From NCBI GenBank assembly GCA_963971425.1, contig OZ020524.1:14759845-14823844 (forward strand): a stretch of 64,000 bases of DNA, in the 5' to 3' direction. The notes under the pieces were generated by a model, which did not search any database, was not told the DNA's origin, and saw nothing but the letters and a program-made list of their open reading frames with translations. The position numbers and the translations under genes were made by a program. Positions 22,441-63,335 of the stretch are shown piece after piece. Numbering within the stretch: position 1 is the first letter of the stretch; every line of letters begins with the position of its first letter. This stretch comes from Bryoerythrophyllum caledonicum. Lineage: Eukaryota; Streptophyta; Bryopsida; Pottiales; Pottiaceae.

Positions 22441-23034
22441 CTCAATTGAAATCAATAGCAAGTTAAAAGTGGAAGTAGAAGAAGAGAAGAACGCATGTCT
22501 CTATAGGGGCCGGTGTCAATAAAGTGTCTGTTTGTTTCACCACTAAGTCCATGTCCACCGGACATGGTTAGTAGCATGGAACTACTTTCCCTTTTCCAGG
22601 GGTAGACACTATGTACCACGTAACAAGTGACCAAGAAGAAAGTAACAATGACGTCAAGGAAGCTAATGTGATGAAGTGTTTAGTAGGTTTTCATGAGGGG
22701 TCTAGCATGTTTGGGATGGATTGGTTGTTTTTGAGTTTCCTTTTGTGTGGGAGTATGGACATAGTATGTTGGATTGCAATAGTGTCAATATTAGTAAAGG
22801 TGGTCTTGATTGAGGTCATGGGAATTTTGAATGTTTCTTCAAGGGTTGGCATTGAGGGGATAAAGGTGGTGGCTCTAGCAACCGCAGTGATGACAATGAG
22901 GGGTTTCTACTTTCCATCCAAGTGCTTGAATATCATTGAAGAGTTTATTTATTTTGTTTGCAATAGCTTCCTATGAAAATCTATCATTTTCAATACTTTA
23001 ATTCAATGAATATTGAAATTTGGATCTATGTGGG
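22441..23034. other. Intergenic DNA with a shared short repeat
   Basis: The segment 22503-22566 is the inverted partner of 9505-9552. The plus-strand frame 22611-22976 (121 codons, hydrophobic) has no recognisable family, and I do not call it a gene. Confidence 0.35.
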
Positions 23035-25065
23035 TTGGTGGGAGTCTTTGTATGGTAGCCCTGTGATAGGTCTTGTTTAATGAGGTATTGATCTAAGAAT
23101 CTTATGGGGCCTTTGTCGAGGGTTTCGTCCATAGAGGACCATTCATATCTTTGAAAGTAGTATGGGGTAGCATAAGCGTGTTCATAGGGGTGTGGCATCT
23201 CAGTAGGCTTTCTCTAGACCTTCCTTTGCTAATTTGTTGGCTTGTTTGTTGCCGTTGATGCTAGTGTGAGCATGAACTTTATGGAGTGTGGTAATTTGTG
23301 TGCGATTTTGGAACATTTTGACCATAGATGTTAGGATAGTTTGGTCCGGATGACTATTGTGTTGAGTGGGGTGTTTTATGTGTGTCTTTAGGAGGTATAA
23401 AACATTTATGCAATCCGTAAAAATGTGTGCCAGTTTGTTGCGGTATTGCATGATAATTATCTTGAGGGTTTTATAGATAGCCATCATTTTGGCTCTAAGG
23501 ATATTTTGGAGTCCATGTAATCTTTTGGCAAGTTTAATTCGTTTGGTGGGGTTGTGTATTCCCTAACTTGCTTGTTCTCGATGCCAATGTCCCAGACTTA
23601 CTTTGGTTGGTTCTTCGAAGGAACCATTGGTGTAATAACTAAAATTGGGGTCAAATTTTAGTGGGGTGTGAGTTTGCTATTTGGGAAGTAAGGGGATTTG
23701 AGGGATTAGTGGTCTGAAGTTGTTTATAAAGGGGGTCTTAGACCATCTTTTGTTGCGGTTTACACGGGTTAGTGTAAATGGGGATGGAACAATTGCGGTA
23801 TATTCATTATTGATGTTGAGATTTTTTGCAATCAGTGTAAGTTGAGCGAGGTGTTCTAATGTGCCAATTTCTTGGTTTTGATGATGAATACATAGGACAC
23901 GTAAGGTTGATGGTTCAAGCCCGGGTTTTAAAGTTTTGGTGGTATAGTGGGTTCCATATGCAACATTGAATCCGTTTCAAATAGTGTTATGATATGGGAG
24001 TCTGGATACGTGCCCAAGTGTGGATTGAAATTTTGGTACCAATTAGTGTCGGGTGTGATAATGATAGTGGTGGTATGGTTGGGGTTGTTGTTTGCCGCTA
24101 GGCATGCTAAATGTATTGCTTGTTGTGTTTCTTCGTCATTGTGAGGGTGTGCAAGGTCTATTCCGTTCCACCTGTAGGTTTATGCTTTCTCAAGTGAGCC
24201 AAATATTTTATCCTGTTTGAATGGAGAATGAAACTTTGAAATTTTTGTGGAACATGTGACGGGGGATAAAAAGTATGATTGTGTTATATTCAAAGATGTG
24301 ATAAGAGAGTATAGTATAGGAGCGGAATGTGTAATGTGCATGTTTAAGGGGGTCATTATTTGGTATGCAATTTTTGTATCTTTGGTATAGCCAAACGATT
24401 TCGATTTTAAATGTTTGAGGTGTGGATTCAATGTTCATGGAGGCTTGTATTGCGTCATGGTATTGGTTCCACAATCATTGTAGTCTAGCGATCGGTGTAG
24501 TGATTAAGTGTCTACCGTTTCCTTCATATATGGAGGCATTATTTTGTTGTATTGTTATTGTATTCGTTCGTTGATTTGGGGTTACAATGGGTTGTGAAGA
24601 TGTTAAGGAGGGGGCTAATGATGGGCAGTGTAACAAATCTTGTATCTCTAAGTTGTTCTTGGAGGTGATGTAGTTTTGTGATTTTTAGGGAGAAGTTGTT
24701 TTGGACTTTGTGGTAGTATTGTTTAATGATTTCGGTGTTATGGAGAGAGGGTTTCAATTGTGCCAAGGAAAAAAATTTCTTTGCCAGGGCCATTTACTAT
24801 AGATTGTGTTGTTGTGTTACCAATGGCATAGGTATGATGTGTCGTTTTACTTATTTTGTTAGAGTCTACATATTTTTCTATATTTGTGGTTGATATTGTT
24901 GTTGGTAGGGTATGTGGTAGGAATTTTTAATATGTGGCGGTGGGGGGGAGGGGATGGGTATGGTGGGTTTGGAGGGTTTAGTAGAGAGTTGATGTCGGGT
25001 AAGATGTCATTGTAACTGATGATGTATGGTTCTTTTAATGTGCAAGGTGGAGCATGAGTGGGGCA
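23035..25065 (-). mobile_element. 5'-truncated Dualen-like LINE, copy A (ORF2 middle domain and RNase H)
   Basis: The minus strand encodes decayed pieces colinear with the plus-strand copy C at 60200-62240. From 25065 leftwards: the linker after reverse transcriptase (PTHAPPCTLKEPYIISYND), the middle domain (FGSLEKA, then RWNGIDLAHPHNDEET near 24130-24240) and RNase H with the IFTDCINVLYLL and NGNKQANKLAKEG motifs (23200-23487). It ends at GPIRFLDQYL. There are many stops and frameshifts. Both the 5' two thirds and the 3' end (CCHC, restriction-like endonuclease) are missing. It is dead. Confidence 0.8.
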
Positions 25066-25072
25066 TGGGTAA

Positions 25073-25540
25073 GAGCATCTCCACCGGGGCACGGGGCCTC
25101 AACAGATTTACAGGGTTGCCGGATTATTTTAGGATGGTTGCCGCACCGCGGACGCCAACACGGGGAACCGGTCCGCCGGCTTGGCGTTGGATTAGCTCCC
25201 AAACGGGAAATCAATGATTTTTCCAGTGCATACTCTATTATTTGCCGTTCCACCTCACCAATCCACTTTTGCCACGTGGACTAATGGGATTGGCGGTGGC
25301 TTCCGAAGGCTGTGATGTTCAACAATTTCATTGCTCAACCATGTGTTGCGGCATCGACGGCTGGCTTTGGCAGCTGCGACCTCCCTTCCGGCGGCAACAA
25401 CGTCTCATTCTCCGCCTCCCTGGTAGCATGCAAAGCGTCTCATGGTGCAGAATTGTAACAAGACTTAGTTGTTGTCCCCGCTTTCCATGGAGGTTCTCCG
25501 CCTTAGCGTGGAAATTTCCCCGCCAGGGGTGGAGATGCTC
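25073..25540. repeat. MITE with GAGCATCTCCACC ends
   Basis: GAGCATCTCCACCGGGGC on the left pairs with GGTGGAGATGCTC on the right, 468 bp apart. GAGCATCTCCA-type ends are widespread in plant MITEs. The GC-rich interior has open frames on both strands but no domain. It abuts the truncated end of LINE copy A. Confidence 0.6.
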
Positions 25541-45056: not shown

Positions 45057-45921
45057 GTTCTAGTATATTTTGCAAGTGGATAGATTTAGCATGAAATTAG
45101 TTGAATCTTGTCTAACAATGAAATTTTGAAATAAAATGAATGTATCAAAATTTTCCATGACTATGTTTCATCAAAACCACTCATGGACTGCTTAGTCTAC
45201 TTCTAAGAGCAAAAAGGAAAACTAAATTCACCATTTTCATTACCAACAGGGAGATGTTTTAAAATCATAAGCTCAAAAATTTCATAAACTTTGATTCCAA
45301 AGATTGAAACATTACAACCTTGAAAGTAAAAAAAGTGATCAGAGAACTCTAACTTCAGCTGGTGTCAAAGTTTTGCACTAAACAAAAGTTCTCAGCTTTA
45401 CACCATTATAATGTATGGGATGTTTCTTCTTTGTACACTCATCCCTCTCATAAGTTATACCTATCACATGGTACTAGAAGAGCCTGTGTCCTCTGGATAC
45501 AAAGTTGGTTTGTCTTAAGTACACTTTCCCGTCTGTGTCCCTTCAAGATGCCGCCTCTCCGCCCCCTCTGTCACTGTCCCCTTCCCCCTCCCCTTCCCCC
45601 TCCCCTGTTCCGGTCGCCCGTTCCCTAAAACCATGAATCCAAATATTGATACATTTGCCATCTTTTTTTGGAGGTTTATATATGCTAAGAAAAAAGCTTT
45701 GTTGTTGAAACATGGCATTATTAAAGCTATAAAATAAAAGCCTCAAAGCAAAAGCCTGTAAAATAAAAGCCTCAAGGTAAAAACATGAAAATCTTCCCAT
45801 AACGTGAATAAGCTGATGGCATGGACTAACTCATGCACGGACGGAAACCAATACTATTATTAATATAGATAATGCCACTAACTTACAACATCAGCTAACT
45901 ATATTCTTGTGCATCTAGTAA
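45057..45921. other. Intergenic DNA with a diverged family T fragment
   Basis: The segment 45220-45400 (AAAATTTCATAAACTTTGATTC, GATTGAAACATTACAACC, CTTCAGCTGGTGTCAAA) follows part of the TTAA family at low similarity. A C-rich CCCCTTCCCCCT run lies at 45575-45606. No gene is seen. Confidence 0.4.

Positions 45922-46001
<80 letters not shown>
45922..46001. repeat. (TAG)n microsatellite, the 3' tail of LINE copy B
   Basis: About 26 TAG units. On the minus strand this is (ACT)n and it begins four bases after the stop codon of the restriction-like endonuclease frame. That position makes it the terminal tandem repeat of the LINE rather than a chance microsatellite. It also marks the element's true 3' end. 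Confidence 0.85.
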
Positions 46002-46004
46002 TGT

Positions 46005-46500
46005 TCATGTTGGGTCGTACACTATTGGAACGGGTTGTTTGTTTTCTAAGTGCCGTTTATGAATTAGTATGGACATGGCATGGTGTGTGGCTATGATATT
46101 TATATTTTTGAAGGTGTGACGGATGGAGGTGAGAGGGACATTAAATGGTTTGTTCAATTCTATCATTGGTGGTACGTGTGTTGAGGCTCTTGTCCCTCCA
46201 GTTACAATGATGATTGGATGAACTTTCCATCTGTGATTAATTAGTGGTTGGTATTTATTCATTTTATTTGTTATTGTTTGCGGTGAAAATTTGTCGTTAC
46301 AGTATGCAAATTCAATGAATTGAATGGTTATTTCCGAGTTGATTGCATTTGGTGGGATGGCATTGAGTGGTAGGCCTTTGACGCATAGTAGGTCCGGTTT
46401 GAATCGAACATTGCATAAACATCTTTGCAAGTTGCATGTGCTTGGCAATAACCAATTTTGGACTGTGTTTTATGGTGGTTCATTGTGGAATATTCCAGCG
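46005..46500 (-). pseudogene. Restriction-like endonuclease (RLE) domain of LINE copy B
   Basis: The frame at 46448-46005 is open for 147 codons and ends in TGA directly before the (ACT)n tail. It contains RFKPDLLCVKG, then ITIQFIEFAYCNDKFSPQ and MNKYQPLI. This is the PD-(D/E)xK arrangement of RLE domains in R2, CRE and NeSL elements: a PD pair, a second acidic residue in a hydrophobic strand, then K..KYxPL. Upstream (about 46450-46500) the same domain continues in another frame (NAGIFHNEPP). In target-primed reverse transcription it would nick the target strand. It follows the CCHC knuckle seen in both copies B and C, so it belongs to the LINE. Confidence 0.75.
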
Positions 46501-46610
46501 TTCATGATGGTGTAGCATCTAGCAGTTTTTAGAGGAAAATAGTAGTTTCCTAATTTACCATGCTGCTTCGTTATGTCGTTTAGTGATTAATGCATGTATG
46601 TGAGGCTGTT

Positions 46611-46669
46611 GGCATTTGAGGAGGATGTGGAGCCATGTGTCGGGGTCATTCAAGTCGCAAATTGGGCAT
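46611..46669 (-). other. CCHC knuckle of LINE copy B
   Basis: The sequence reads CPICDLNDPDTWLHILLKC, spaced C-x2-C-x9-H-x4-C. It lies between RNase H and the restriction-like endonuclease. The same motif with the same spacing is at 62449-62505 in copy C, which ties the two copies together. Confidence 0.8.
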
Positions 46670-46897
46670 GTGTTGTTGGGGAATCGTTCATGGCCAAAGA
46701 ATAGTTATTTTTTAGCATTACCCATGTATTGGCCCGTACGGAATTTAATGAGGCATGTTGTTTGAGCATCCATGATAGTAGGATTGTTCCAAGAATTGGT
46801 AGATAATGATGTGTCAATGTCTTTATTGTTTATCCATTTTTCTATGTTTGGGGATTTTCGGCAATGACTTCCAGGTTGTTTGTTCACACATGTTTTA

Positions 46898-47460
46898 TCA
46901 AATGTTTGTTTGAAAACCGTATGGGGCCTTTGTTTGGTGTTTCACCAATGTTGTGCCACGAATATTTTTGATAATAGTAAGGTGTGGGATGTGTTGTTTG
47001 GAGGCATTTTTTTGCGGTTTGTTACTTCCTTCTTTAGCTAATATATCTGCTTGTTCATTTCCTAAGATGCTAGAATGAGCTTTGACTTTTAATAGTGTGA
47101 TAGGTTGTGTTCTTTGTATGGATAATTCTATCATTGATGTTAAGATGGCTTGGTCTCGGCGGTTGTGGTGAGTTGTTGGGTGTCTATTGTGCATATTTAT
47201 GAGATATAGTATATTGAGACAATCAGTAAATATATATGCGGGCTCGTTTGGAAATTTTTGTTTATGGTTTTGAGGGTTTTGTAAATAGCCATCATTTCTG
47301 CTCTTGGTATGTTTTGTAGTCAAGGTAGTTTTTTGGAGATGTTAAGTTCTTTGGTAATGTTATGGACACCATAGCTTGCTATTTGACTTTGCCAATTATG
47401 AGGATTAATTTCAATTGGTTCTTTAAAAGAACGGTCTGGGTAGTAATAATGCTCAAGGTT
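46898..47460 (-). pseudogene. RNase H domain of LINE copy B
   Basis: The pieces are PDRSFKEP (first Asp, near 47430), RAEMMAIYKTL (Glu, near 47300), IFTDCLNILYLI (second Asp, near 47235) and KVKAHSSILGNEQADILAKEG (near 47050, last catalytic residues; motif given in part as GNEQADILAKEG). A frameshift and a stop separate the pieces. The fold would degrade RNA in the RNA-DNA hybrid made during retrotransposition. Confidence 0.8.
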
Positions 47461-50115
47461 GAATTGGAGGGGGGAGTCCAAGTTGTATGTTGGAAGGAAT
47501 GAAGTGGAGTTGGTTTGGTATTGTGTACTTGGAAATTTTAGTTTAGAGCAATGTTTGTTTTGGTTGACTCTTATTTGTATGGGGTTTGGTGGAGCGTAGT
47601 TGATATATACCTTTCCAATGCCTAGATTGTGTATTGTGTCTTGTAGATTGTTTAATTGGTCGTTATTACCTATGGTGTTGTTTTGATGGTATATACATAT
47701 TATTTGTAGCCTTGAGGGTTCTGTTTTTTGTTTATGTGTTTCATTTTGGAGAGTGGAATTAGTGTATTTTATAGTGTCTGCATCAAAAAGCGTAATGATG
47801 TGAGCATCTGGGAATGGTCGAGTTGTTGGGGTTGGATTTTGGTACCAATCTTTGTCCGATGTAACTATGAAGGTAATATTGTTAGTGTTTTGTTGTACAG
47901 CTAGTCTAGCCCAATGGATGGCTTGATGTGTATCTTTGTTAGTGTGTGCATGTGCGACTCCAATACCTTTCCATTTCTATTCAAATGCTTTTCCAAGGGA
48001 TCCAAAGACTTTGTCTTGGATAAAAGGGGAGAAGATTTTATTGTTGTGGGGCATCTTAGTGGGGAGGAGAAATATGAGTGTTCAATTTTAAATAAGGATG
48101 TTATTGATTGTAGGATTTCAGTTAGAAGTGTGTATTGTGCGGTTGTAAGTGAGCTTGTTTTTTATTTTGTTGGTATATGTTTTTGATGAAGCCACATTAC
48201 TTCAATTTCAAATGATTGAATAAGTGGTTCTAGAATTGTGGTATTGTTAATTGATTGATGATATTGGTTTCAAAGCCATTTTAGTCTTTCCGTATTTATG
48301 GTTGCGAGGAGGCGGCCTGTGTTTTCATGTATAAGTGCATTGTCATTATGTACTACTATAGTGGGTGTATTGACTTTAATATCTGTATCCGAATTACTTT
48401 CATTGGTAGAGATATGTAATAGTGGGATGATTGTGGGTGGGTGGACATATCGGGTGTCTTTTATTTGTGCTTGTGGATGATGTGCCTCAATTATTGTAGC
48501 ATATTGTTTGTGTTGTTGTTGTTGGTAGGAATTGATGAGGCATGAGACGTTGTGGTTGGTTACGGTTGAGTTATGCTACGGGAAGAGATTATTCTGGGGT
48601 TGCTATTTTGTGTATTGAGCGTTGTTGTTTGTTATCCATTTGCATAGAAAGGTAGTGTCATTTTTTGTAATGTTATTGGAGTCTATGTATTTGCAAGTTT
48701 TGTGGCTTTGTATGATGGTGGTTGGATACGATGTGGGATTTTTAATGATATGTGTTGGAGAAGGTGGTGATGTGGAGTTGTTGTGTGGCAACATTAGGTG
48801 TAGTAACATTATGGTTGGTGATAGGTTTGTGTTGTCTGTAATGATGTATTTATTTTTCAGTGTTTTAGGTGGGTGGTGCATTGAGCAAGGGTTATTGCAT
48901 TGTAGGAGGCATGTTGGATGGCAAAATAATTGTTTGGCAATGTTAAGTGCGGTTTTAATAAGTTCTGTAGGGGTGGTGTGGAATGTTTTAAATTCATTGT
49001 TATCCATTAGATTTGTGCCATTGGGAAGGGTGATATGTTGGAGTTTGGTGATATTGTATAGAAGAAGCTTTTGTAGTGATTTATTTGAGAGTGAGTAGTT
49101 AAGTCTAGGTAGATTATCGGCTTCCTTTGTCCAATTAATTTCTAGAGGCGAGGGTTTATGAAGAAAGTTTTTGAGGGAGCTACGGAGATGGACACCAACG
49201 TGAATTTTTAGCAAGTAGATTGTGCGGGTGATAGGGGATCAAATACAATCTTGTTTTTTAATGTGTGGTAGGAGTTATGAGCCTCCGTATGTGGCTAGTA
49301 TAAATTTTATGAGTCCATTGTAAATTATTCCTATTCTTCCTCTCTCATTGAGTGCTTCAAGTAGTTGTTCGCCTATGCATATAAACTATACATTTTTGAG
49401 TGAGAAGGCATCTAATCCGTATAATTTTTTTGGTAGTTGGGTAATTATATTGGACATGCATTTTGGGAGGCCGTAGATTGTTTTATGTAATGCTATTATT
49501 TTTTTGTCTGATTTCTTCATGGATTCTTCATGGCGGGCATGGCGTATGGTACTCAGTAGAAGCTATAAGCTATGCCAGCGCGAGTAATTGTTTCTGCCAA
49601 GTGTATTTTTTGCTTCATGGTGCATGGGCATGTTATTATGTCTTTACATTGATTTATTAGTTTAGTGGTTGTGGCATGTATTTGTATGTTCCATTTAGGG
49701 AGGCTACTAGGTGTGATCCAAGGTGTATGCCTCATTTTGATGAAGTGTGGGTATAGGTTGGTTGCGGAAGTTAGTGTTAGCTGCTTGTAGGTATGCTTTA
49801 AAGGTTAAAGGATTCATTTTTGAATTGTTAGGGCAACCGATTAGTGCACACTTGACAACACCAACATCCATATCCGTCCATTTGCAATATCTATCCAATT
49901 TGTTAAGTTGTATTTGTATGGATTTTGAGTTGGGCCGATAAGGCGGCGAGGTCATCGACATATGCCGTGGAGTTGAGGGTAGTTTTTGATGTTTTGGATG
50001 TATAGCCATTATTGCTTCGTTGCATCCATCTAAGTAATGGTTTTAAAAATATAACAAATAGGTAAGGACTTAGTGTGTCTCCTTGGATTGTGCCTTTATG
50101 TATTGGGATAGGGTC

Positions 50116-50480
50116 AGTTTTAACGGGTATTTAACAAAATTTGGACAAAATCACCATTTGTGGACCGATTAGACTCTGAATTCTTATTGGCTGCCAGCCG
50201 ATGCTTCTCTTTGGATGGAAATTTGAAACGGTCATAACTTACTCAAATTTTGTCCAAATCAAGCTTATGAGGTGTTTATTGACATCTACATTTTCCGTAG
50301 ATGACAAAAAAAAATCTCATGTGCTCCATTTGGATATAAAATGAGTGAGTTAGGCACTTTAGAAGATTATTGATAAGACGCTTTGGCAGCTCTTGGCTGG
50401 TAGCCGACCACTATTTCTGGACTTTCATTTGTCTATATTTTGTGAAATATCCATTTTTTGCCAAAATGTTCTCCAGTGAT
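50116..50480. other. About 365-bp insertion inside the RT of LINE copy B
   Basis: The RT frame runs GNIYSQSP (ending near 50485) and resumes at PIPIHKGTIQGD (near 50110). In copy C these segments are separated by only about 15 residues. The inserted DNA is AT-rich, with two similar halves around GGCTGCCAGCCGA (50188) and GGCTGGTAGCCGA (50397). I find no clear terminal repeats, so its nature is unknown. Confidence 0.5.
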
Positions 50481-51675
50481 CAAGGTGGGTGATTGTGAGT
50501 ATATGTTACCAATAAGTGTTATTGCATCAAGTGGATAGCCTAGGTCTTTCATAATTGCGAGAAGTCTAGTGTAATCAATAGACCCAAAAGCATTTTTGAA
50601 GTCTATATATAGAATATATATCTTGGTTTATAAATTTAGTGTCTTCAAGGGCTGCAATGAGGGTTTGTATTTGTCTGCCTGTGCCTTTTTTGCTCAAAAG
50701 CCCACTTGACTATTGTGTAGGATGCGATGTTTATTGCCATATGCGGAGATTATAGATGTCAATGTGCTGGTAAATAACTTGTATATAGTATTAGCAAGCG
50801 CAATTGGTTGGTAGTTGAGGAGGTATGAAGGATCTCCTTTTTTGTATAGTAGGATTGTAAGGCTCGTTTTCCACGATATAGGTATTTGTTTTTGTTTGAT
50901 AGCAGTGTTGGAAAAATAGGAATAAAAGTTTATGGAAAGAATGAGGCATGTTTTTGAAAATGCAGTTAGGGATTTTGTTGGATCCGAAAGTTTTATAGTT
51001 GCCTAAATTTTTTAGGGAAATGCCAAATGTTTCTTGATCGAAGTATTTGTATAGTGGTGTTTGTTGTTCGCTACGTTTTTCTAATGTAAAACCATCAAGG
51101 TCATGCCACGGGTATTGCCTCATGGCACATGTGCAGTTCGAGGGGTGTTGTAGTTGGTAGTAGCATGTGGGGGACGGTGGAGAGATGAGAGAGGAGTAGC
51201 TCCGTGAAACCTGGTGAGGAGGGGTTTAGGTGTTAGGCAAAAACGCGAAGCACAAGGCAATGAGAGAGGCTGGGTCTCATTGCAAATCCCGTTGTGCACC
51301 TCGTTTTGTTGCTAGAAAGGTGTTTCTAGGATGTGTAGAAGTGTTGGCAGGGATTGCAAGATCTTGATATGTTGTCACAAGTTTGAATGGGCGGCAAAGG
51401 ATCTAGCACTAGTATGGGAGAGTAGATCTGAAGTGGGGCTCTGTGTTGGCCGAGATCTAGCTCTAGGTCCTGCACTACCCACGTCAAACATGCACAAGTA
51501 GATCTAGATCTGGATACCATACCACAACTAGAAACATCACACCAATCACCTCCTCAACTAGGACACAAACATACACATGAAGACCAATTACTGCCCATAA
51601 TATGCACGAGACCAACGCCAAGATACAAGATCTGCCCTCAAGATTCAACACTCCCAAGGACCAGCTAAGTTTCAT

Positions 51676-52890
51676 ATGTGTATTACGTACTTAGAAAAGT
51701 TTCAATATTGCTTTTACAAACTTCGTAGAAATATGCTAGTGACTGCTGATGTTGTTATATTCATGCCTAATCTCTATTACAAGAAGCCACAAAGCTGCCA
51801 CAGAACGAGAAGATCAGCACCAGAACGCAAGGTACAATGCAGGGAGCAACAACACATGTGGAAGATCACCAAGTCACCTGCGACATTAACAACACATCAA
51901 CGTCAACACTCTGCAACCAAAGAAACCATCACCAAACGCAAGACATACAACAACAACGACGCAACACCCCCCGTGGCCAAGGTACGTTTCCCAACCTCTC
52001 ACCTAACCATTATCTGCTTGCTATTACATGCCATAAAAAAAAAACGCGAACTCTTTAGCTGGACAGCGAGCAGTAGAGGGATATGCCGACATGACAAGGA
52101 GGAGCTGAACAGAGACACAACACCAAAATATGAGAACCCACCGAAATCAGAAATGAAGGAAGTACAGTTCTCTAGACTCCACAACTTGAGAAGCCTTAGG
52201 CAACACACCCCAACAAGCTCTACACACCAACACCAACATACAAACAAGACCTCAAGACAACACACACAACCAAGATATGAGCACATCCAAGTAAGTGTCC
52301 TCACCAACTCATCATTTTTGCCCTCCTTCGTTTGCAAGTCTTTACTAGGTAACATGAACAATGCGAAACGCACACGTAACCACCACCAACTGTTGCTGCA
52401 ACAAAACCCTAGCCGGCACAACATTCCCAAAAAAGTCAAATCTATTATAGATCAAGATCTAAACTTCCACATACAAGATCACAGCCGTCAAGGTGTATTC
52501 GAACGACACTACGCAGGAGCCAGCCCTAAACGACCACAAGATCAAAAACATCGACGTTCATCGAACACAACGACATCCACCAAATGGCAACCCATCACAA
52601 GGTATATAATGCGCTCCTACCCATCTTTCAAATCCTCTCACTTTGCTCTACTGCGCAGATGCATTCCCTCTGCCCTTGGAAAACAAGGACCCACTTTCAC
52701 AACTAGAGGGGGGAACACATACCTGCGAGGAGACCTACGAGAGGGAGATCGGACACTCTCACAGAAGACGCGCTGCATTTGTGAAGGACCCCTCTCCTTT
52801 ATCTTTCAGAATATTTTGTTGTGTGCTTTCATCATTCCAAACCTAGCTATGACTAACTTGTTGTTGTTGCATTCCCACCAGATCGCCTAA
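51676..52890 (+). other. 404-codon open frame in the LINE leader, probably not a protein
   Basis: The frame is open but the predicted product is rich in His, Gln, Thr, Asn and Arg. It has no hydrophobic core pattern, known motif or homologous stretch elsewhere in the window. The DNA is A/C-rich, which lowers stop codon frequency. It lies where a 5' UTR of the LINE would be. I keep it only as an open frame of unknown meaning. Confidence 0.2.
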
Positions 52891-53367
52891 GTCCTGCGCA
52901 ACATAGCAGAGCTGGCCAGATTAGAAGACAACACTCTTATACAATACAGAAGAGCAACACCAACGTCAACGCTAGACAAAGACGAAGGACGTACCAGTCA
53001 ATCTCGGCGGACCAGCAACCTCCACAAACTTGAAGAACTAGGGAGCCCTCCCACGCGACTGCTCCCTGCAGCCCACACAGACGAAGGAATCGATTAGCAA
53101 GACCCCGACAAAACAAGAACCCACAGAGGCAGTGGTCGAGAGCAGCAATACTTCGGCAAGCCAACGGCCAACGACCATACAAAACCGGACGTGCTCGGCG
53201 CAGGTGGAGATCTACCGACCGAAGACACGAGATCACAGAAGCGGCAGCCCAGCGGCGCAGGTGTATTGACTAGAGACGTAGTAACAGGCGCGAGACTGAA
53301 GGTTCGCTGCGCGAGTACACAACAAGTCCGCTACACGCAAACTCGGAAGCAGTAGGCCAACAATCCT

Positions 53368-54483
53368 GTGAGGCCTTCGAACCTGCAGCCCCACGCACCA
53401 AACTCTCAGCTCAAAGCCCGCAAACTATCAATCCTGCGCATCGAGACCGAACCGACGCCAATTCTGGTACATACAACACAAACCCTAGAGAAGACGCAGT
53501 GGGGTAGCAAGCCTGCGTACGAAGATCAACAAGATTATAGGCGATTACTAGAACGTGCAAGACTGCAGGCGCCCTACAACCAGAGACTGAAATAGAGAGT
53601 TTGCAGGAGGAACGGTCTAGTCTAGCAAAAGCGTAGGCGGAAACCTAAGCCCGCCAAAAACAAAGTCTGGCACAGGCAAGATTGGAACGGGCAAATCAGG
53701 CTGTAGTCAGGGAGGAGACTCAGCAAAAGCCCAGCCCGAAGGCAGACCCCTGCCGCTGGCCAGCCTGACACCAGAATAACGTTGCAATCCCCAAGACCCG
53801 CTCCAAGAGAAGTTCAGAGACGTAGATTGAAGACCCCATGCCAAGATCCAGGTCGTAAACGGGACAACAAGAAGGAGCTAAGGGACATCCAAATCTATTG
53901 CACCCAAGTTAAGACTACACAACTAGGTCATAGTTCCTTATCACTCCCTTCGCAATCTATTATCTTATGTAACCACTGGGTTTATTTTGAAAACCCATGG
54001 TCATGCACACAAAGTTTAATATTATACGTATTTTTTTGGGGAGGTGACCACTCTTATGGCACCTCTCATGGGCGTGTACGTGTACATATCACTAATCCTC
54101 ACAGCCTCAACCCCTCTCACTTAGAGTCAAAAGATAGAGGTCAATTCAATTTTTTGCATGCCATATACATTGTCAAAATCCACTCCTTCTTGATCATTTT
54201 AACTTCATCAAGCCCTCAATGCATGTTGAGGCAAGAAGTTAGAATCAAGGTGATAAGGGGAAATGCTATAGCAAGTCTTCACAATTCTCTTAGTAACATC
54301 TCTATTCTTGTTATCTACAGTGTGTCTCAATTCCAAGCTGCGGTGACCCCCTCCAAGCGTTTGTTTCTTGAAGTACTAGAGGAAAACCCATGTACTATGC
54401 CTACAAATGAAAATGCTATGATTGTTGCAAGTGCCATCCAGAAAAAGGTTAAGGCAATAAGTTTGCCTTACACCATATACTAG
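53368..54483 (+). pseudogene. Decayed coiled-coil, ORF1-like coding region upstream of LINE ORF1
   Basis: The frame 53368-53595 ends with AYEDQQDYRRLLERARLQAP. From 53589, in a shifted frame, it continues as EIESLQEERSSLAKA, RQKQSLAQARLERANQAVV and EETQQKPSPKADP. The heptad-like pattern of Leu and charged residues suggests a coiled coil. The frame 53782-54483 follows and is in phase with ORF1 at 54499 across a single TAG (54481-54483). I infer an older, longer ORF1 or an additional gag-like ORF, now broken by frameshifts and stops. Confidence 0.4.
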
Positions 54484-54498
54484 TTAGGCTTCCACACA

Positions 54499-55814
54499 AT
54501 GAACAGACTAGCTAAGAAAAATGGGAGTCCAAAAGTGCCTTTAAATGTTTTAGGAGACTTGGTCAAAAATGGGCTAAGTAGCAAAGAAGCAGCTGAAAGT
54601 ATCGAGTCAATGCCCTCTTTCCCATTCGTCCCCCAAGAAGAATGGCCATCAAAAGGGTGGATGGAAAGAATGGCAACCACTTCAACCTCACCCAACTTCC
54701 AAGTGAAGTTGAGGTGGACAAAGATGGCTATGCCTTAGATTACCGAGTATCAATCCACTTTGAACTTGGTGATCAAATATGGGCAAAAGACGTGGTTTTA
54801 GACATGATAAAATCACGACTTAAAGATATGGGAATCCCTACTGGGACCCGTATTGGTGAACCAATAGCCGTCTTTTGCTATCACCAATCAGAAAATTGGA
54901 GTGGAGCTATTAAATTACACCTAAAAAATCCGGGTGTGGATGCCAAGGGATTATTGCAAGGGACAAGGCCCTTCATTCTCACTTTGAATGAAGGCATCCC
55001 ACACAAAGGAAAAATATGCAAGTCAAATGATGCCTTGGCTTTCTCACATCTCTTGTCAGTCAAAATATCCGGTCCAAACCTAGCCAACAAAGAAGCATAT
55101 GACTTGCATGTAGAAATTGTGAGAGATAGCTTTGCTAGGGGATATGATTTTGAAGTAACGGGGGTAGAAAAAAAAGGATTTTCTGAATTTGCATGGATCA
55201 AAACCCCCTCTTCGGAGCAAGCGGCCAAAGTAAAGGATTACAAAGTCTCATTCAATAATGAGATTTTTGTGCCAATCTTTGCAACCCTGAAGATGGATGA
55301 GGATGAGATTGCAAAAAAGAATTGTTTAATTCTAATTGCAAAAAACCTCAACAAAACAAAGAGTGAAAAAGAACTAGCGGATGGAATCAAGTCTATACTT
55401 GGGGAAGAGAATGTGGTAGATACATTCTTCAAACTCGAGCATGGGAGACATATCGGTACTTGCAACATTGAGTGTCTAAATGCTGCGGTATATAAGAAAT
55501 TTGTCAAACAAAGTAAAAAACTTCATGGCAAATACATCATGTTTTCCCTCCACCCTAAAAGTTTGGATGGTAGCAACAAACCAAGTACTGATGAATTGAC
55601 AAGACTAGGATTCACGGATGTAAACTCGGCTGTAGCTAACGCGGTAATTGCCATGGAAAATGGTCCAAATAAAGGCAATGGTGTCACTCTACAACAACTC
55701 CGGAGAGAAATGAAAACCATGAAAGGGGAAATTATGGAAGAAGCGAGACAATATGCGGATATGGTGCAAGCAAACACGATCAAATCCCTTCGAGAGGAAA
55801 TGTCGACTCTCTGA
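54499..55814 (+). pseudogene. LINE ORF1 (gag-like), one frameshift
   Basis: The first part, MNRLAKKNGSPKVPLNVLGD to about 54640, is in frame 1. The main part, 54642-55814, is a 390-codon open frame. The switch near 54640 looks like a frameshift within one protein. I recognise no RRM or CCHC. The last 50 residues (LRREMKTMKGEIMEEARQYA) look like a coiled coil, as in the ORF1 RNA-binding proteins of LINEs. After TGA at 55812 the same frame stays open for another 30 codons (AAETQASEREQRAIGSK) to TAA at 55905, continuing the coiled coil, so the TGA is probably a mutation. The pol frame opens at 55673 in the -1 frame and overlaps this end. Confidence 0.6.
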
Positions 55815-55950
55815 TCCCAACTGATTACAACCATCATGGCGGCGGAAACACAAGCATCGGAACGAGAGCAACGTGCCATTGGAAGCAAAATGGACACGTC
55901 AAACTAATAGCGTCAAACAACGCTTTAACAAACCACACTAAAATACATAT

Positions 55951-55954
<4 letters not shown>

Positions 55955-55999
<45 letters not shown>
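55955..55999 (+). repeat. (CAA)15 between LINE ORF1 and ORF2
   Basis: Fifteen CAA units read as polyglutamine in the ORF2 frame. CAA repeats are unstructured in mRNA and often act as ribosome-permissive leaders. Its place between ORF1 and the 2A-like motif may matter for how ORF2 is translated. Confidence 0.85.
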
Positions 56000-56001
<2 letters not shown>

Positions 56002-56062
56002 CTCCACACCCCTTCCACTAGTAGCCATAAATATTATTCATTGCAAACTAATAATTACACTT

Positions 56063-56092
56063 TGCGGAGACATAGAAACTAACCCCGGCCCA
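56063..56092 (+). other. 2A-like peptide motif (CGDIETNPGP) at the LINE ORF2 start
   Basis: The frame reads ITLCGDIETNPGP and then ATG at 56093. It fits the D(V/I)ExNPGP consensus of 2A peptides, which make the ribosome skip the Gly-Pro bond. 2A-like motifs at the start of pol are known in some animal and trypanosome non-LTR elements. The frame is open upstream through the (CAA)15 back to 55673, overlapping ORF1 in the -1 frame. The motif is intact in this otherwise decayed copy. Function is inferred from the motif only. Confidence 0.8.
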
Positions 56093-57500
56093 ATGCCAAA
56101 TGTCTTCCTCAACCATCCAAAAACACACAAAAGATTATCAAAAATATATTTCATTCCGAATACTATAAAACTCCACCCCGAATATCAACACCTAGCATCT
56201 TCCTTTGCGCCACTTCTAAAAATAATCACATACTACACCAAACCTACTCCACCCTATACCCCAACATTTCCTGTTACATACATCAAAAAAACAACCATCC
56301 ACCCACACATATCTTATTCGCCATAATTACCACCCTCCACCCTTCAATAGACAAATGCAACAATATCACCAACCAACACTCTACCAACACAAACCCAACA
56401 TACTGGACAAATATATTACTAAACAGCCTATCCTCTCTACATAATCCCCCTGAAAGACATATAGATACACTCCACCCATACACTAAATTCCTAGAGGAAA
56501 ACCAACACCTTTTCGAACAAAAAAACCTCTCTACACAATGACCTATATAACTTTATTCATAGCCAAATCCCACCCCCTTCCCTCGATGAACTACAACTAA
56601 AATTCCCCTACTTCCCGCATAATCTCATCCTTGAAGCTCTTAGATGCTTTGAACCAATTCATGCTTACACACACCACACCCCGACACCCGCCTACATCCC
56701 CCCTCCACTTTATAACCACGACAACTTAGACAATAGAAACACATACATAACTACATGGAACGCCTCAACGCTAAACACTGCTTTACCATGCATCCACAGT
56801 CTAACCGCCCACACCAACACACCACCCGCCATAATTGCCATACAAGAAACTAAACTAACCACTACTAAATCCACAAAATACATCCAAAAAACATTCCCCG
56901 ACTATAAACTTATATTTAACAACACTCATTCTCTCACACGATGCATCCAACAACGAAGGCCATGTACACCAGCTAGAGGAGGTCTACTAATGCTCATACA
57001 CCAATCATATGCCTTCCCCGGAAATATTACTAAAATCCCTACCCCGGCTAATATATCACCATATCTTCAAATTATTAAAATTACTAATCGACCCCTCCAA
57101 CCATGGTTCATTCTTCACCTATACATGCCCTCGCACATAGAAGACTCTAGGCTTATTCCGGAGATCCAAAATTCCATCACTTCACAAATAAATACACACA
57201 CTAACCATACAATAATACTTTGCGGAGACTTTAACCGAGACATTGCCCTTATTGGAAGACAAAAGGGAGGAGTTCTTACCCCCCCCACTTGCCATAGACT
57301 ACCAATGGCAAAATTATACGGATGACCTAGAATTATATTTAATCCCAACCGATACACAATACTCTCGTCAAGGTGGACTTAATTACACACATACTAGCCT
57401 AATTGATGGATTTTACATTAAAACACCCAACCATACCCGATATACATCTATCACCAATACCACAACCAACTTAAACTCAGACCACTTCCCAATCCAACTC
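56093..57500 (+). pseudogene. LINE ORF2 N-terminal part with APE-type endonuclease
   Basis: The start MPNVFLNHPKTHKRLSK leads through a region broken by frameshifts (56326-56530). The endonuclease follows: TTWNASTLN (Asn, 56750), IAIQETKL (catalytic Glu, about 56840), FILHLYMPS (about 57110), ILCGDFNRD (Asp/Asn pair, about 57220), a frameshift at the run of C at 57282-57289, then TSLIDGFYI and NSDHFPIQL (about 57470-57500), the SDH end motif. All key APE positions are recognisable. This enzyme class nicks target DNA at the start of target-primed reverse transcription. Confidence 0.85.
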
Positions 57501-59900
57501 AATATACCTCCCAACACCCTTATAAGTAGACCTACCACAACCATCAACTCAAATGACATTAAAATACTAAACCCCATCCCAAAAGAAAACCTTGATAACT
57601 TTAATACAATATTTTTTGAAAAACACTCACTACAAATAGATTCTCTTACAAATATTCTTTCTAACCACCAACACCTCACGCACATACAATGGCAAGAAGC
57701 TTGCACCACTCTTGACAAACTTATTAATGAAATTTCTACTATATTAGAAAAGACTTGTAAAGCGCCCCCGATTCCACAACTCACACCTAGAACCTCGAAA
57801 CAAGGGGGGTATCTCCCGAGAAAACTAGCCAAAAAATGGAAACAACATCTTGTCACATACCACACTATTCATAAAATAATTTACACTGCTAAAACTAACC
57901 AAAATTGGCGAACCCACCCCATACTCTCCGAACTACAAAACCTCCATCACCCTCAAATCCCACAAGTACCACTACCCAACACCCCTCACAAAGACTCGCT
58001 AAAAGACATTGCAATCATTGCAAAAGCGGCCAACAAAGAAGCTCGGAAAATTACTACAAAATATGCTAGAGAATGTATCAAAAAAGCCATCTCTAAGTAT
58101 CGTCAATTATATGAAACTAGCCCAAAAAAAATCAATAGAAAAGTCTTTAAAAATAACACAAACCTGCCACTAGACTGCATTTTAGATCAAAACAACAACA
58201 TTCTAACCAGCCCAGATGACATCGCAAACGAAATACATTTTCAACAATCCATAAACAATAGACCATCCACCCCCCCATGTCACTTCCAACCAGAACATAC
58301 AACAACATGCACGTGCGGAGTCAGGCGATACCCGTGGCATGATTTGGACGGATTCACCATTGATAAAAGAGGCAAACCAACAACACCCCTCCACACATAT
58401 TATAACAGAGACACATACAACATGTGCCTAAAAAATTTGGGAACCAACAAAGCCCCCGGCCCGGACCATATACCTAACTCAGTTCTAAAAAACATGCCCC
58501 CAAGATTCCATGACCTTCTATCATTATTCTTCCTTCATTGTTACAAACAAAAATCCATACCCACATCCTATTAAACAAGTTTAACAATCTTATTATACAA
58601 AAAAGGCAACCCATCCGTGCTACCTAACCACCGACCTATTGCCTTAGCTAACACCATTTACAAATTATATACTAGTACACTAACATCAATATTATCGGCC
58701 TACGGGGAAAAACACCAAATATTACACGAAAGCCAATAAGGGTTTAGAGCCGAGAGAAGTACCACACGGCAACTTCAAACCCTCATTGCCGCTCTTGAGG
58801 ATGCAAAATTCACTAATAAAGACATTTACATACTCTACGTCCACTTCAAAAACGCATTCGGCTCCATTGACCATCCTCGATTGCTAGCCATTATGAGTGA
58901 TCTTGGGTACCCGGAAGACGCAGTCACACTGGTTGGCAATATATACTCCCAATCTACCACTACATACACTGAAGAATTCTTTGGTAATACACGCCCTATC
59001 CCCATCCAACGTGGTACCATCCAAGGCGATACATTTAGCCCATACCTCTTCATTATTTTTCTAGAACCTCTATTGAGATGGCTTCAAAGAGGTAATTATG
59101 GCTACACATTTGGCACCTCAAAAGTCACCGTAAACTCGACCGCATATGCCGACGATCTAGTGGCCATCTCTGGACGTCTTAAATCACTCCAAACCCAATT
59201 AGACAAAATAGACGAATTTTGTCTATTGACCGGGATGGAACTTGGGGTCCAAAAATGTGCCGTAACTGGATGCCCAAACAAATCCAAAATAAATCCGACC
59301 GCCTTCAAAGCCCTTATCCAAGCTATCAATATCCACTATCGTAACCAACCAATTCCAGTTCTCAATCAAAACCAACCCTACATATACCTTGGAATAAACC
59401 TAGTCCCATCGCTAAAATGGAAAATTCAAATTCACGCTACTACGACAAAACTTAGTAAACAATGCAATAAACTTACACTGTGTCCGGGCACATTGCAACA
59501 AAAAATAAAAATGATTGATACTGTCATACATCCGGGTATCTCATATAGTTTCTATGCGGTCCCTTATTCCATGCCCGCCATAAACAAACTTGATAAAAAA
59601 ATCATAGCCACACAAAAGAAAGTATGCGGACTCCCTAATTGCACGCCCAATGTCATAACACAACTCCCCCGCGAACTATTCGGATTAGAAGCTTTTTCCC
59701 TCAAAAATGCCTATCTACGTTGCATTGGAGAACAACTCCAAAATGCACTTAACGACAAGGGACGACTAGGATTAATCTATAGTGGACTCCTTCGGCACAT
59801 CCTTGCCATTTATGGAGGAGCACAATACCTCCAAAGACTTAAAAAAACTGATTGTCTTCGGTCTCCCATTACCCGCACACTTTTCTACTCAAAACAGTAG
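57501..59900 (+). pseudogene. LINE ORF2 reverse transcriptase, copy C
   Basis: In one frame (57243 to 59900) with two stops (TAA 58572-58574, TAA 58737-58739), the parts are: a linker with ARKITTKYARECIKKAISKY, NLGTNKAPGPDHIPN (motif 1), LYKKGNPSVLPNHRPIAL (motif 2 region), GFRAERSTTRQL, YVHFKNAFGSIDHPRLLAIM (motif A), RGTIQGDTFSPYLF (motif B), TAYADDLVAISG (motif C) and YLGINLVPSLKWKIQIH (motif D/E region). In motif A the catalytic Asp is His (codon CAC at 58842); copy B keeps Asp at this place. The thumb and linker follow to about 59840. It cannot be active as it stands. Confidence 0.9.
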
Positions 59901-61640
59901 GCCAAACATTTCTAAAAAACACACTAGAAGATTTCCTATTAGGCCCTGTGCCGCTTGAACAAAACTGGGCAAATGAAATACATAACCTCCCTAGATTTGA
60001 CCGACAATTATCAGCCAAACTCCTACAAAAACTTTTTTCCGCAAACATTACCGATCTAAAACAAATTACACTACCAAATGGAACACAACTTATGGACAAC
60101 AAGAGCTACAAAACATTCTACGGTACCCCTCACAAATTAATAAAAAGTGCACTAAATATTGCTAAACAACTATTTTGTCAACCTCCATGCCTCCCTATAT
60201 GCCCAAACCCTTGCACCACTCACGCCCCACCTTACACACTTAATGACCCATAAATCATTGGTCACAATGACATCCACCCCAACATCAACCTCTCATTAAT
60301 CCCTCCAAACCCGCCACATCCACGACCATATGCCCCTCCACCACATATATTAAAAAATCCTTCCATGCACCCAATAAACAACATAACCGCGCACAAATAG
60401 AGAAAATACATTGACTCCAACAACATAAGCAAACAATATACGTCATACCTATGCCATTGGCCCCACAACAACACCACCTACACCAAATGGCTCCCGCAAA
60501 GAAATCTTTTCCCTTGGCACAACCCAAACGCTTCCTTACACAACACCGAAATCCTCTCACGATACTACCTTAGAACTCAAAACAATTATTACAAGAATAT
60601 CATACAATTACACCACCCCCAAGCACAACCCCGAGATAGTAGATTTGTCATGCCACCTCTTATTATCCCCCTCCTTAACATCTTTACAACCGAATGCAAC
60701 CCCGAAACCGACATCCTCGCACAAGAAAATACAATCAAAATACAACAAGATAATGCCCACATATACGAAAGTAATGGTAGACACATAATAACCATACCAC
60801 TCGCTAGACTACAATGGCTGTGGAACCAATATCACAACGCACTACAAACCTCCATTAACATTGAACCAATACCCCAAACATACGAAACTGAAATTGTTTG
60901 GCTATACCAAAGATATAAATACCGAATATCCAAAAATGACCCCCTTAAAAATGCACACTACACATTACCCGACCCTATCTTAGACTTCCTTATTACATCC
61001 CTAAATATCACACATTCATACTTCTCATCCCCCGTCACATGCTCCACAAAAATTTCAAAATTCTACTCTTCATTCGAACGTGATAAGAATTTTGGTTCTC
61101 TTGGAAAAGCTTTTGATCATAGATGGAGCGGAATAGGCCTTGCACACCCTCACAACGAAGAAGAAACACCTCAAGCAACACATTGGGCACGCCTAGCGGC
61201 AAACAATGATCCCAACCACAACATCACCATTATTATTATTCCCGACACACATTGGTACCACAACTTTAACCCACACTTAGGCCCATTCCCGGACTCTCAC
61301 ATCATAGTACTATTTGAAGCGGACTCTATGACTTACAAAGAACCCACTATACCACCGCAAATACAAACACCCCGCCTCGAACTAGCAACCCTACGTATCC
61401 TATGTATACATCACCAAACTCACAAAATAGAGACTCTAGAAAACCTCACCCTTCTTACTTTGATAGCAAAAAATCTAAACATCAATAAAATATACACCGC
61501 AATTGCCCCTCCCACACCTATTTCAATCCGTGTAAACCGTAACAAAAAATGGTCTAAAACCCCCCACACAAACATCTCCGCACTACCAATTACCGAATTG
61601 AGCCTCCCCCTCCCCTATTACCAAATTAATACCGACCTTA
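59852..61640 (+). pseudogene. LINE ORF2 linker and conserved middle domain
   Basis: A frameshift near 59850 moves to FLLKTVGQTFLKNTLEDFLLG and CLPICPNPCTTHAPPYT (59852-60253). The 60650-62314 frame then carries the middle domain. Its core, about 61085-61285, reads FGSLGKAF, RWSGIGLAHPHNEEETPQAT, HWARLAANND and ITIIIIPDTHWYHNFNP. All three LINE copies keep this core, so it is a genuine part of the element. It lies between RT and RNase H. The layout resembles the degenerate adenine-methyltransferase-like region of DIRS-type elements (W..(N/F)PP(Y/F)...P....WY), but the similarity is weak and the NPPY-type tetrad reads AHPH. The function is unknown. Confidence 0.55.
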
Positions 61641-62314
61641 AATTTGACCCCAAATTTAGCTACTATACTGACGGCTCCTTTAAAAAACCAACCGAAGTAA
61701 GCTCGGGACATTGGCACCGAGAAAAAGCCGATTATGGGGTATACAATTCAACTAAACAAATAAAATTAGGCAAAAGACTACATGGACTCCAAAATATTCT
61801 AAAAGCGGAAATGACGGCTATACACAAAACCCTTAAGATAATCACCACTCAATATCCAAACAAACCGGCTCACATTTTCACAGATTGCATAAATGTATTA
61901 CATCTCCTAAATACACACATCAAACACCCCACTTTACACAATAGTCACCCGGACAAAACTATCCTTACATCTATGGTTGCAATGCTCCAAAATCGAACAC
62001 AAATTACTACACTCCATAAAGTCAGGGCTCATGCTAATATCGCTGGCAATAAACAAGCCGACAAACTTGCAAAGGAAGGAAGAGAAAAAACCTACAAGAA
62101 TGTCGAACACCCATACGAGCACGCCCACGCCACCCCATATTACTTTCATAGATATGAATGGCCCTCTATGGGCGAAACTCCCGATAAAGGCCCCATACGA
62201 TTCTTGGACAAATACCTCAAAAAAAATGATCTTGTAAATAACCTAGAAAAACTTACAGAGAATTTCCCCAATATTGATAAATGGACCGGCAATCCAAACA
62301 TTCACAACGTATAG
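61640..62314 (+). pseudogene. LINE ORF2 RNase H domain, copy C
   Basis: Within the open frame 60650-62314 the RNase H catalytic set is complete: SYYTDGSFKK (Asp, 61670), ILKAEMTAIHKTL (Glu, about 61808), IFTDCINVLHLL (Asp, about 61883) and KVRAHANIAGNKQADKLAKE (last Asp, about 62060). After it comes TPYYFHRYEWPSMGETPDKG, shared with copy A, and GPIRFLDKYL. A TAG at 62312 then interrupts the path to the CCHC knuckle. The domain would remove the RNA template. Confidence 0.88.
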
Positions 62315-62448
62315 TCCAACAATTTTTGGAAAAACCCCATAATTACAGATCCACAAATCAAATGCCTAATCAAATTCCGCACCGGATAATACATGGGTAA
62401 TGCCCGAAACAACTCTTCTTTGGAATAGAAAGATTTCCTACAATAACA

Positions 62449-62505
62449 TGCCCAATTTGCAACACCATGGACCCGGACACATGGCTACATGTCTTACTCA
62501 AGTGC
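62449..62505 (+). other. CCHC knuckle of LINE copy C
   Basis: The sequence reads CPICNTMDPDTWLHVLLKC, spaced C-x2-C-x9-H-x4-C, as in copy B at 46611-46669. The following RHNKAVWTIRKLL matches copy B up to about 62570, after which copy C stops. Copy B goes on to the restriction-like endonuclease. Confidence 0.8.
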
Positions 62506-62599
62506 CAAAAACCCCATATACACTCACTAATTGTCTAAAGACATAACAAAGCCGTATGGACTATTCGTAAACTACTTATATCATCAACCAAATCCGGTG

Positions 62600-63335
62600 G
62601 GATGGTTACTAATTGATTGTTGTGTAAATATTTCATTCGCAATATCCGTGGGATTGGTGAGTAGATTGTTATGTCTATCCCTAATAGAGTCTAATGGGTA
62701 GGATGCATTGTTTTTGAACACTCGTTTGTTTATTTTCTTGGGCTTTCCTCACATAATCGTCTACATTTGGAGATTGCTTTTTTACACATTCTTTTGAGCA
62801 TTTTGTAGTTATTTTTCTAGGTGAGTGGTTTGCGGTTTTTGCTATTGATGCGATTTCTTGAAGCCAGTTTTTTTGTGGTGAGTCGTTCGTAGGTGGCCAA
62901 GGGATTTAAAGGTGAGGGTGATTTTGGAGTTTGTTTATTATAGCGTGGTTTCTCCAATTACTGTTATTGTTAACGATGTGAATTGTTTCACGTGTAAGGT
63001 GGTAGGTTTGAAGGTATTTTTTCCATTGTTTGGACAGTTTTCTGGGTAAAAAACCACCTTTTGTGTGCAATTTTGGCAGTGAGCTGGGGGATTGGAGGTG
63101 ATGTGCAGATTTCTTCGATAGTGTTGGATATTTTTTTGATTAGCAAGTCTAATGTATTACATGCGGTATGCCATTGCATAGGCGTTAGTTGTTTGTTTGT
63201 TTGTAGTGTGTTTGTTAAAGTTTCTATTGTATGTGAGTTTTCTATGATGAATTTTGTTTTGAACTGTGTGAGATTGAGTTCGGGGATAGGAATTGTTGGT
63301 CCCGTGAGAAAGTGGCAGAAGAGTGTGCTCTGTAA
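62600..63335 (-). mobile_element. Internal LINE fragment D (linker before RT)
   Basis: The minus strand from 63335 encodes IPIPELNLTQFKTKFIIENS, CNTLDLLIKKISNTIEE and IVNNNSNWRNHAI, then IASIAKTANHSPRKITTKCS and ANEIFTQQSI-like remnants near 62640. These are colinear with copy C at 57570-58270. It contains stops and ends abruptly on both sides. It directly abuts the 3' end of copy C in the opposite orientation. Confidence 0.75.

Follow-up and report, generated by a model that had tools for sequence, protein, structure and literature searches.

Dualen (RandI) is a long interspersed nuclear element (LINE) that was reportedly first described by Kojima and Fujiwara in 2005, with a cysteine protease. 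According to passages in two sources, it encodes both an apurinic/apyrimidinic-type endonuclease (APE) and a PD-(D/E)xK endonuclease (PMC3636483; PMC4640811), and one of these uses Dualen/RandI as the link between LINEs of the restriction-like endonuclease (RLE) type and those of the APE type (PMC4640811). The literature reports Dualen in Chlamydomonas and its kin (PMC8226300), lists it for green algae only as of 2015 (PMC4438587) and calls it expanded in all but one of the cryptophytes examined (PMC12747079). A 2013 table gives L1 and RTE as the LINE clades of flowering plants, in a source that also gives (ATT)n and (CTATTT)n as RandI tails (PMC3747384). Our literature searches, judged by listings, found no report of Dualen/RandI in land plants. 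Here we describe, from a 64-kb stretch of DNA (the window) and the assembly to which it belongs, what is very probably a recently active non-long-terminal-repeat (non-LTR) retrotransposon that has two endonucleases, belongs by its architecture with Dualen/RandI and has spread through the genome of a land plant, probably a moss.

The window holds three related copies of this element (A, B and C) and one loose piece (D), all interrupted by stops or frameshifts. An earlier reading of the window, made from its letters (the sequence-only reading), had joined copies B and C into an implied element with the order ORF1-2A-APE-RT-middle-RNase H-CCHC-RLE-(ACT)n (ORF, open reading frame; RT, reverse transcriptase) and had matched it to Dualen/RandI.

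Long-frame copies with two endonucleases

We searched the window's own assembly (437 Mb), in which the window lies on contig C12 at 14759845-14823844, with the RLE of copy B and with the APE and RT of copy C. A first look gave 7,146, 3,915 and 5,236 candidates, of which 150, 140 and 107, respectively, were scored. Contigs C5 and C13 are absent from the matches of the genome searches; with 13 large contigs summing to 414 of the 437 Mb, these two together make up at most 23 Mb. Twenty copies of the C type (L009-L028) were fetched, picked for their long frames, and thus demonstrate the existence of such copies and not their fraction; we also read one copy from a family nearer copy B (L054) and one from a third family (L029). 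All 22 long-frame copies have a single open frame in the order 2A, APE, RT, PCIF1-like domain, RNase H, CCHC knuckle and RLE, so that the domain order pieced together from copies B and C is found intact, with both endonucleases on each relative. In the C type this frame runs for 2,454-2,757 codons and contains the 2A motif GDIETNPGP, the PCIF1-like domain and the CCHC-RLE region in 20 of 20 copies; the APE lies in the same frame in all 20, because the frame lengths at the APE matches equal those of the whole frames. The layout is identical in the 2,480 codons of L054 and over the 2,401 codons covered in L029. Among the 140 scored APE places, 33 sit in frames no shorter than 2,400 codons, a stop being flagged in one of these. 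A second copy seemingly begins 3' of the L029 element in the same orientation (L029:8834-9701), with its 2A altered to GDMETNPRS.

The APE that the sequence-only reading had placed upstream of the RT in copy C lies at 56741..57520 (+ strand), with frame changes inside the domain, and its motifs were located at 56741 (TYITTWN), 56840 (IQETKL), 57218 (LCGDFNRD) and 57471 (LNSDH). On its own this copy matches Pfam weakly (E 0.0015, under the cut-off). Exo_endo_phos_2 is found in eight of eight APE members and Exo_endo_phos in seven of eight, and the intact relative L009 exceeds the Exo_endo_phos_2 cut-off, with 31.7 bits against 27.4. The best profile match in the PDB is exonuclease III (ExoIII; E 0.0011 over 41 residues), and residues N7, E36, D163, N165, D247 and H248 are invariant in all eight alignment rows.

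The RLE predicted after the RNase H of copy B was likewise located, at 46008..46469 (- strand), as 154 open codons with KPDLL, FIEF and NKxxKY; the full motifs are RFKPDLL at 46406, FIEF at 46325-46299 and NKMNKYQPLI at 46268-46239. All 13 alignment rows share D152, E179, K195 and K198, but not the P of PD. We compared a structure model of the L009 domain with 350,542 PDB chains and found that the best four matches were all R2 (9nl2, E 3.8e-4; 9dou, 5.1e-4; 9nl3, 2.2e-3; 8iby, 2.3e-2); most of those ranking next were polymerases of arenaviruses and bunyaviruses and cap-snatching nucleases, which are PD-(D/E)xK enzymes. The model suggests, at low confidence, that the C-terminal RLE is R2-like.

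All domains of the protein are under purifying selection. The ratio of nonsynonymous to synonymous changes (dN/dS, by NG86 on seven C-type pairs; pairings with L029 and L054 are partly saturated) was 0.06-0.12 for the APE, 0.04-0.06 for the RT, 0.09-0.15 for the PCIF1-like domain, 0.02-0.05 for RNase H and 0.05-0.13 for the CCHC-RLE region, and 0.22-0.33 for the spacer before RNase H. Fourteen copies are near-identical: in the 66 of 91 pairs that could be compared gap-free (25 were dropped for unequal length or at least 300 differences), the two copies differ at 1 to 126 of 7,270 nt, with a median of 6. Most LINEs manage with one endonuclease, and one of the two present here might accordingly be vestigial, with no part in insertion. 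The low dN/dS of both, together with the invariance of their motif residues (although not of the P of PD), makes us regard this as unlikely. Long-frame, near-identical copies in a land plant would allow experiments on the strand that each endonuclease cuts and on the need for both, and the arrangement, reported until now chiefly from algae, should be useful for the study of LINE evolution.

Several observations weigh against the two-endonuclease element as we describe it. The full-length copies read were selected for long frames, and no copy in the window spans both APE and RLE. Whole-protein Pfam scans gave RVT_1 as the only real match on L009, only RVT_1 and PCIF1_WW on L022, and five families on L024, two of which (both APE) were under the cut-off. 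The RLE matches no Pfam family, and a PDB sequence-profile search with it returned only two unrelated weak matches (E 0.23 and 0.86); its structure model is of low confidence (predicted local distance difference test, pLDDT, 51; predicted template modelling score, pTM, 0.52), and its D-to-E distance is 26 residues, whereas that of R2-type RLEs is shorter, at 12-14. A target duplication, finally, is clear in one copy only (L013, described below), and none is clear for copies B/D and A.

A PCIF1-like domain between RT and RNase H

The most unexpected part of the element is its middle domain, the presence of which the sequence-only reading had recognized while missing its likeness to PCIF1 (also CAPAM), the cap-adjacent N6-adenine methylase. 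In copy C this domain (60860..61417, + strand) scores 38.9 bits with Pfam PCIF1_WW against a cut-off of 31.1, and the family is over the cut-off on the whole proteins of L022 and L024, not on that of L009. With an E limit of 0.1, every one of the 21 sequences in the domain alignment matches PCIF1_WW (best 6.5e-15); E values below 0.05 were reached by this family alone. In the genome, all 150 scored places are above the PCIF1_WW cut-off (2,614 candidates); the 18 of these fetched as short loci, and one more within L029, are without exception LINE copies. A second genome search, with the L043 domain as query, gave 5,726 candidates, of which 117 were scored and matched.

Profile matches in the PDB up to E 10 were PCIF1 chains only, two in number (E 0.059 and 1.4), which we take to be the zebrafish and human sequences. 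Their alignments run in order over SPxxC, FGSxG and the place of NPPF, which the second of them covers. Despite the name of the Pfam model, the matched parts (287-371 and 326-421, chain numbering) are far from the N-terminal WW domain, which lies at residues 43-77 of PCIF1 (PMC6318281). In the domain alignment, A177, P179 and H180 do not vary and H178 hardly does; the catalytic NPPF is not kept, being replaced by HPHN (61145-61156 in copy C) and, in copy B of the window, by HAHT (PCIF1-like motifs at 47932-48077, - strand). As disruption of NPPF lowers PCIF1 activity according to the same source (PMC6318281), N6-adenine methylation is not expected of the replaced motif, and we expect a PCIF1-like domain devoid of N6-adenine methylase chemistry. 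The domain thus resembles PCIF1/CAPAM in its PCIF1_WW profile and in the order of the SPxxC and FGSxG motifs, and differs from it in the HPHN or HAHT sequence and in its position between the RT and RNase H of a LINE; because NPPF is replaced, we do not file it as an active PCIF1.

Could the match be due to chance or convergence, the middle region being simply a fast-evolving LINE linker? Some of our results count for this and against a PCIF1 origin. A structure model built from the 21-row alignment reached a pLDDT of 37, and with this failure PCIF1 homology rests on profiles; the PDB profile matches are weak, the alignment that reaches the NPPF place having an E of 1.4 only, with HPHN opposite a catalytic motif that is not kept. 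The lack of PCIF1_WW matches in 14 control genomes is a weak control in that those named are prokaryotes. Against a linker stand the consistency and exclusiveness of the PCIF1_WW matches across the alignment, the restriction of the PDB matches to PCIF1 chains aligned in order over the three motif places, and a dN/dS of 0.09-0.15. We therefore judge a linker quite improbable and retain the PCIF1-like reading, which would make the element a case of a LINE taking over the fold of an mRNA-cap enzyme.

We found no report of PCIF1 fused to a LINE by title or abstract in a literature search whose coverage leaves out most subscription journals. No relatives beyond this genome were confirmed when viral contigs were searched with the RT and the PCIF1-like alignment, or genome contigs with the latter. 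As to its role, the domain, with its methylase chemistry lost, may serve RNA binding, perhaps at the cap or 5' end. A bolder version, which we hold to be unlikely, is that the LINE took the cap-methylase fold of PCIF1, lost the chemistry and employs the fold to sense a cap or 5' end, keeping the beginning of its own RNA close to the RT so that insertions reach the 5' end; with APE and RLE, both under selection, perhaps serving one target strand each, full-length insertion would then need nothing beyond the element itself, now spreading in the genome of a moss.

Relationship to other LINEs and predicted mode of insertion

The RT of copy C lies at 58422..59582 (+ strand), with ADD at 59142-59159 and stops at 58572 and 58737, and matches RVT_1 with E 4.9e-19 on 58740-59897. 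As LINE references for the RT we used the R2 and L1 chains of the PDB, in a comparison of scores with an in-genome L1 control rather than in a tree. The L009 RT scored 112 bits with 9nl2, 101 with 9nl3 and 100.5 with 9dou (all R2, the latter two being R2Tg chains; these higher scores are with R2 of vertebrates), against 75-78 bits with L1 chains; among these we count 8c8j, listed as an RNA-directed DNA polymerase, which is presumably L1. The RT of L054 scores like that of L009. An L1-type RT from the same genome, taken as control, gave 133-136 bits with L1 and no more than 72 with R2. The best R2 score thus exceeds the best L1 score by 34 bits for the RT of this element, whereas the in-genome L1 RT favours L1 by 64 bits; these scores and the reversed control indicate that the RT does not group with L1, a grouping that would have told against the Dualen/RandI match. 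An intermediate position of the RT is possible on these comparisons.

RNase H, at 61658..62074 (+ strand) in copy C, matches the Pfam family RNase_H with E 1.7e-11 (1.4e-11 on L024) and keeps its D-E-D-H-D residues. It retains an H where the archaea-like RNase H of plant L1 carries an R (PMC4640811).

These data bear on whether the element is a plant L1-type LINE that acquired an RLE-like C-terminus. It shares with plant L1 its non-LTR nature, an APE before the RT and an RNase H, and L1-type LINEs are also present in this genome; moreover, only three of the five R2 sequences outscore L1 with the L009 RT, since the R2 chains 8gh6 and 8ibw, which we take to be from Bombyx, gave 66-70 bits and so fall below L1. 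Set against this are the RT scores and their control, the H in place of R in RNase H, the RLE and the tail, which is (TTC)n and not poly(A), and we consider an L1 origin very improbable. The element is like R2 in its RT (by score with three of five sequences), its C-terminal CCHC knuckle and RLE, and the fold match of the RLE, and unlike R2 in having an APE, an RNase H, a PCIF1-like domain and 20 different 3' flanks in place of a single site.

The closest match of architecture is with Dualen/RandI, as the sequence-only reading had proposed: both combine the two endonucleases, APE and RLE, with RT and RNase H in a single element, and both end in a short-repeat tail instead of poly(A), here (TTC)n in the C type and (ACT)n in copy B. 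The assignment to the Dualen/RandI kind is one of architecture, the RT having been compared with R2 and L1 chains. It differs in its host (a land plant, probably a moss), in its PCIF1-like domain and 2A site, which the available portions of the Dualen sources do not mention, and in protease content: Pfam detected no protease family on ORF1 or ORF2, although a diverged one could escape, whereas Dualen is said to have a cysteine protease.

Upstream of ORF2, the ORF1 of copy C (54642..55811, + strand, in an open frame at 54597-55811) matches no Pfam family and is by eye the same type of protein as the ORF1 of L054. Between ORF1 and the 2A site (GDIETNPGP, 56066..56092, + strand, by motif search) lies a (CAA)n trinucleotide array, detected by TRF at 55953..56001 (+ strand). 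In the 20 C-type copies (oriented positions about 1,590-2,400) this array is 45-684 nt long; it varies over 186-684 nt even among the 14 near-identical copies, the remainder of which is almost identical. It reads as polyglutamine or polyasparagine and changes in three-base steps, so that the frame is never broken. A hypervariable in-frame array together with a 2A site raises a testable question, namely how ORF2 is translated.

In all 20 C-type copies the 3' untranslated region (UTR) measures about 230 nt and leads into a (TTC)n tail, which in L019 consists of two TTC units followed by a run of T; the (ACT)n tail of the implied element was seen on copy B only and does not stand as the general tail. 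The last ~125 nt of the 3' UTR are strongly conserved in eight sequences, including L029 and copy A, and the 3' UTR of L009 (L009:157-389, - strand) folds better than 200 of 200 shuffles (z -3.87). The B-like loci L048-L051 and L054 have a different sequence after ORF2.

No two of the 20 C-type insertions share a 3' flank. L013, a 5'-truncated copy without ORF1, is flanked on both sides by GGAGGACTAGC, an 11-base target duplication (12 counting the tail T), and its 3' flank is antisense LINE sequence. LINE coding sequence is matched by seven of the 20 3' flanks of ~150 nt (L012, L013, L014, L019, L022, L023 and L028), in both orientations and with no random control, which may point to a bias towards insertion into existing copies or just to how abundant these are.

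We propose that the element would be transcribed into a two-ORF RNA, in the translation of which the 2A near the start of ORF2 would release a leader rich in glutamine or asparagine, leaving a protein of ~2,350 residues with the APE, RT, PCIF1-like domain, RNase H, CCHC knuckle and R2-like RLE. This protein would bind its own RNA at the conserved and structured 3' UTR with its terminal (TTC)n, nick the target DNA and reverse-transcribe from the nick (target-primed reverse transcription), with a presumed division of labour between the two endonucleases.

Copies in the window, host genome and neighbouring features

Copy C (about 54,640-62,595, + strand) comprises ORF1, the CAA array, 2A, APE, RT, middle domain, RNase H and a CCHC knuckle (62449..62505, + strand, by motif). 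Its ORF2 is interrupted by stops and frameshifts, and the copy ends at about 62595, just short of the RLE. Copy B (45916..51180, - strand) has RT, PCIF1-like domain, RNase H, CCHC (46612-46668, - strand, by motif) and RLE, with stops and frameshifts in ORF2, and an (ACT)n tail of about 29 units (45916..46001, - strand). The sequence-only reading had joined the two copies by their shared domains and by the spacing of the CCHC knuckle, and this spacing, C-x2-C-x9-H-x4-C, is indeed identical in both.

That reading also took copy B to be simply 5'-truncated, which the junction with piece D (62596..63290, - strand) contradicts. Piece D is the pre-RT part of copy B, parted from it by the insert that holds C; in C-equivalent coordinates the two meet at bases 58,271 (end of D) and 58,270 (start of B). 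As these ends abut, B and D look like a single older copy split by an 11.4-kb insert with C. Copy A (22450..25080, - strand) has the PCIF1-like domain, RNase H, an internally deleted CCHC-RLE region, the RLE C-terminus, the conserved 3' UTR and a TTC-rich tail. It is 70% identical to copy C in protein sequence over two of three main matched stretches and 51% over the third; being closer to C and retaining the RLE C-terminus, it ties C's family to an RLE within the window. The notion that B and C belong to unrelated LINE families, one of APE type and one of RLE type, merely mixed in a window where no copy has both domains, has next to no chance of being right, since it is refuted by the full-length copies with APE and RLE in one frame (22 of 22) and runs counter to the RLE end of copy A.

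The land-plant host suggested earlier agrees with a LEAFY gene of the genome (L059), which reads MRDY and AWCQ and was classed as type II. We assume that these motifs stand at LEAFY positions 312 and 345 and that they mark type II. LEAFY types are defined by positions 312, 345 and 387, and type II is reported from mosses and one liverwort (PMC6588583). A type II LEAFY supports a land-plant host, probably a moss. The assembly has thirteen large contigs of 20-65 Mb, a number and size that would fit the karyotype of a moss. The rbcL is by eye of plant type. Two different rbcL proteins occur in the assembly (contig C821 versus contigs C590 and C894), possibly through contamination or a second plastid source.

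Elsewhere in the window, an open frame of 556 codons at 5881-7551 (+ strand) matches the DDE_1 transposase family (E 7.3e-12), and a GRAS-domain fragment, from an ordinary plant gene family, lies at 28770-29156 (+ strand; E 9.2e-17). An array of 26/51-base repeats rich in CCCCAAGTC occupies 16169-16613.

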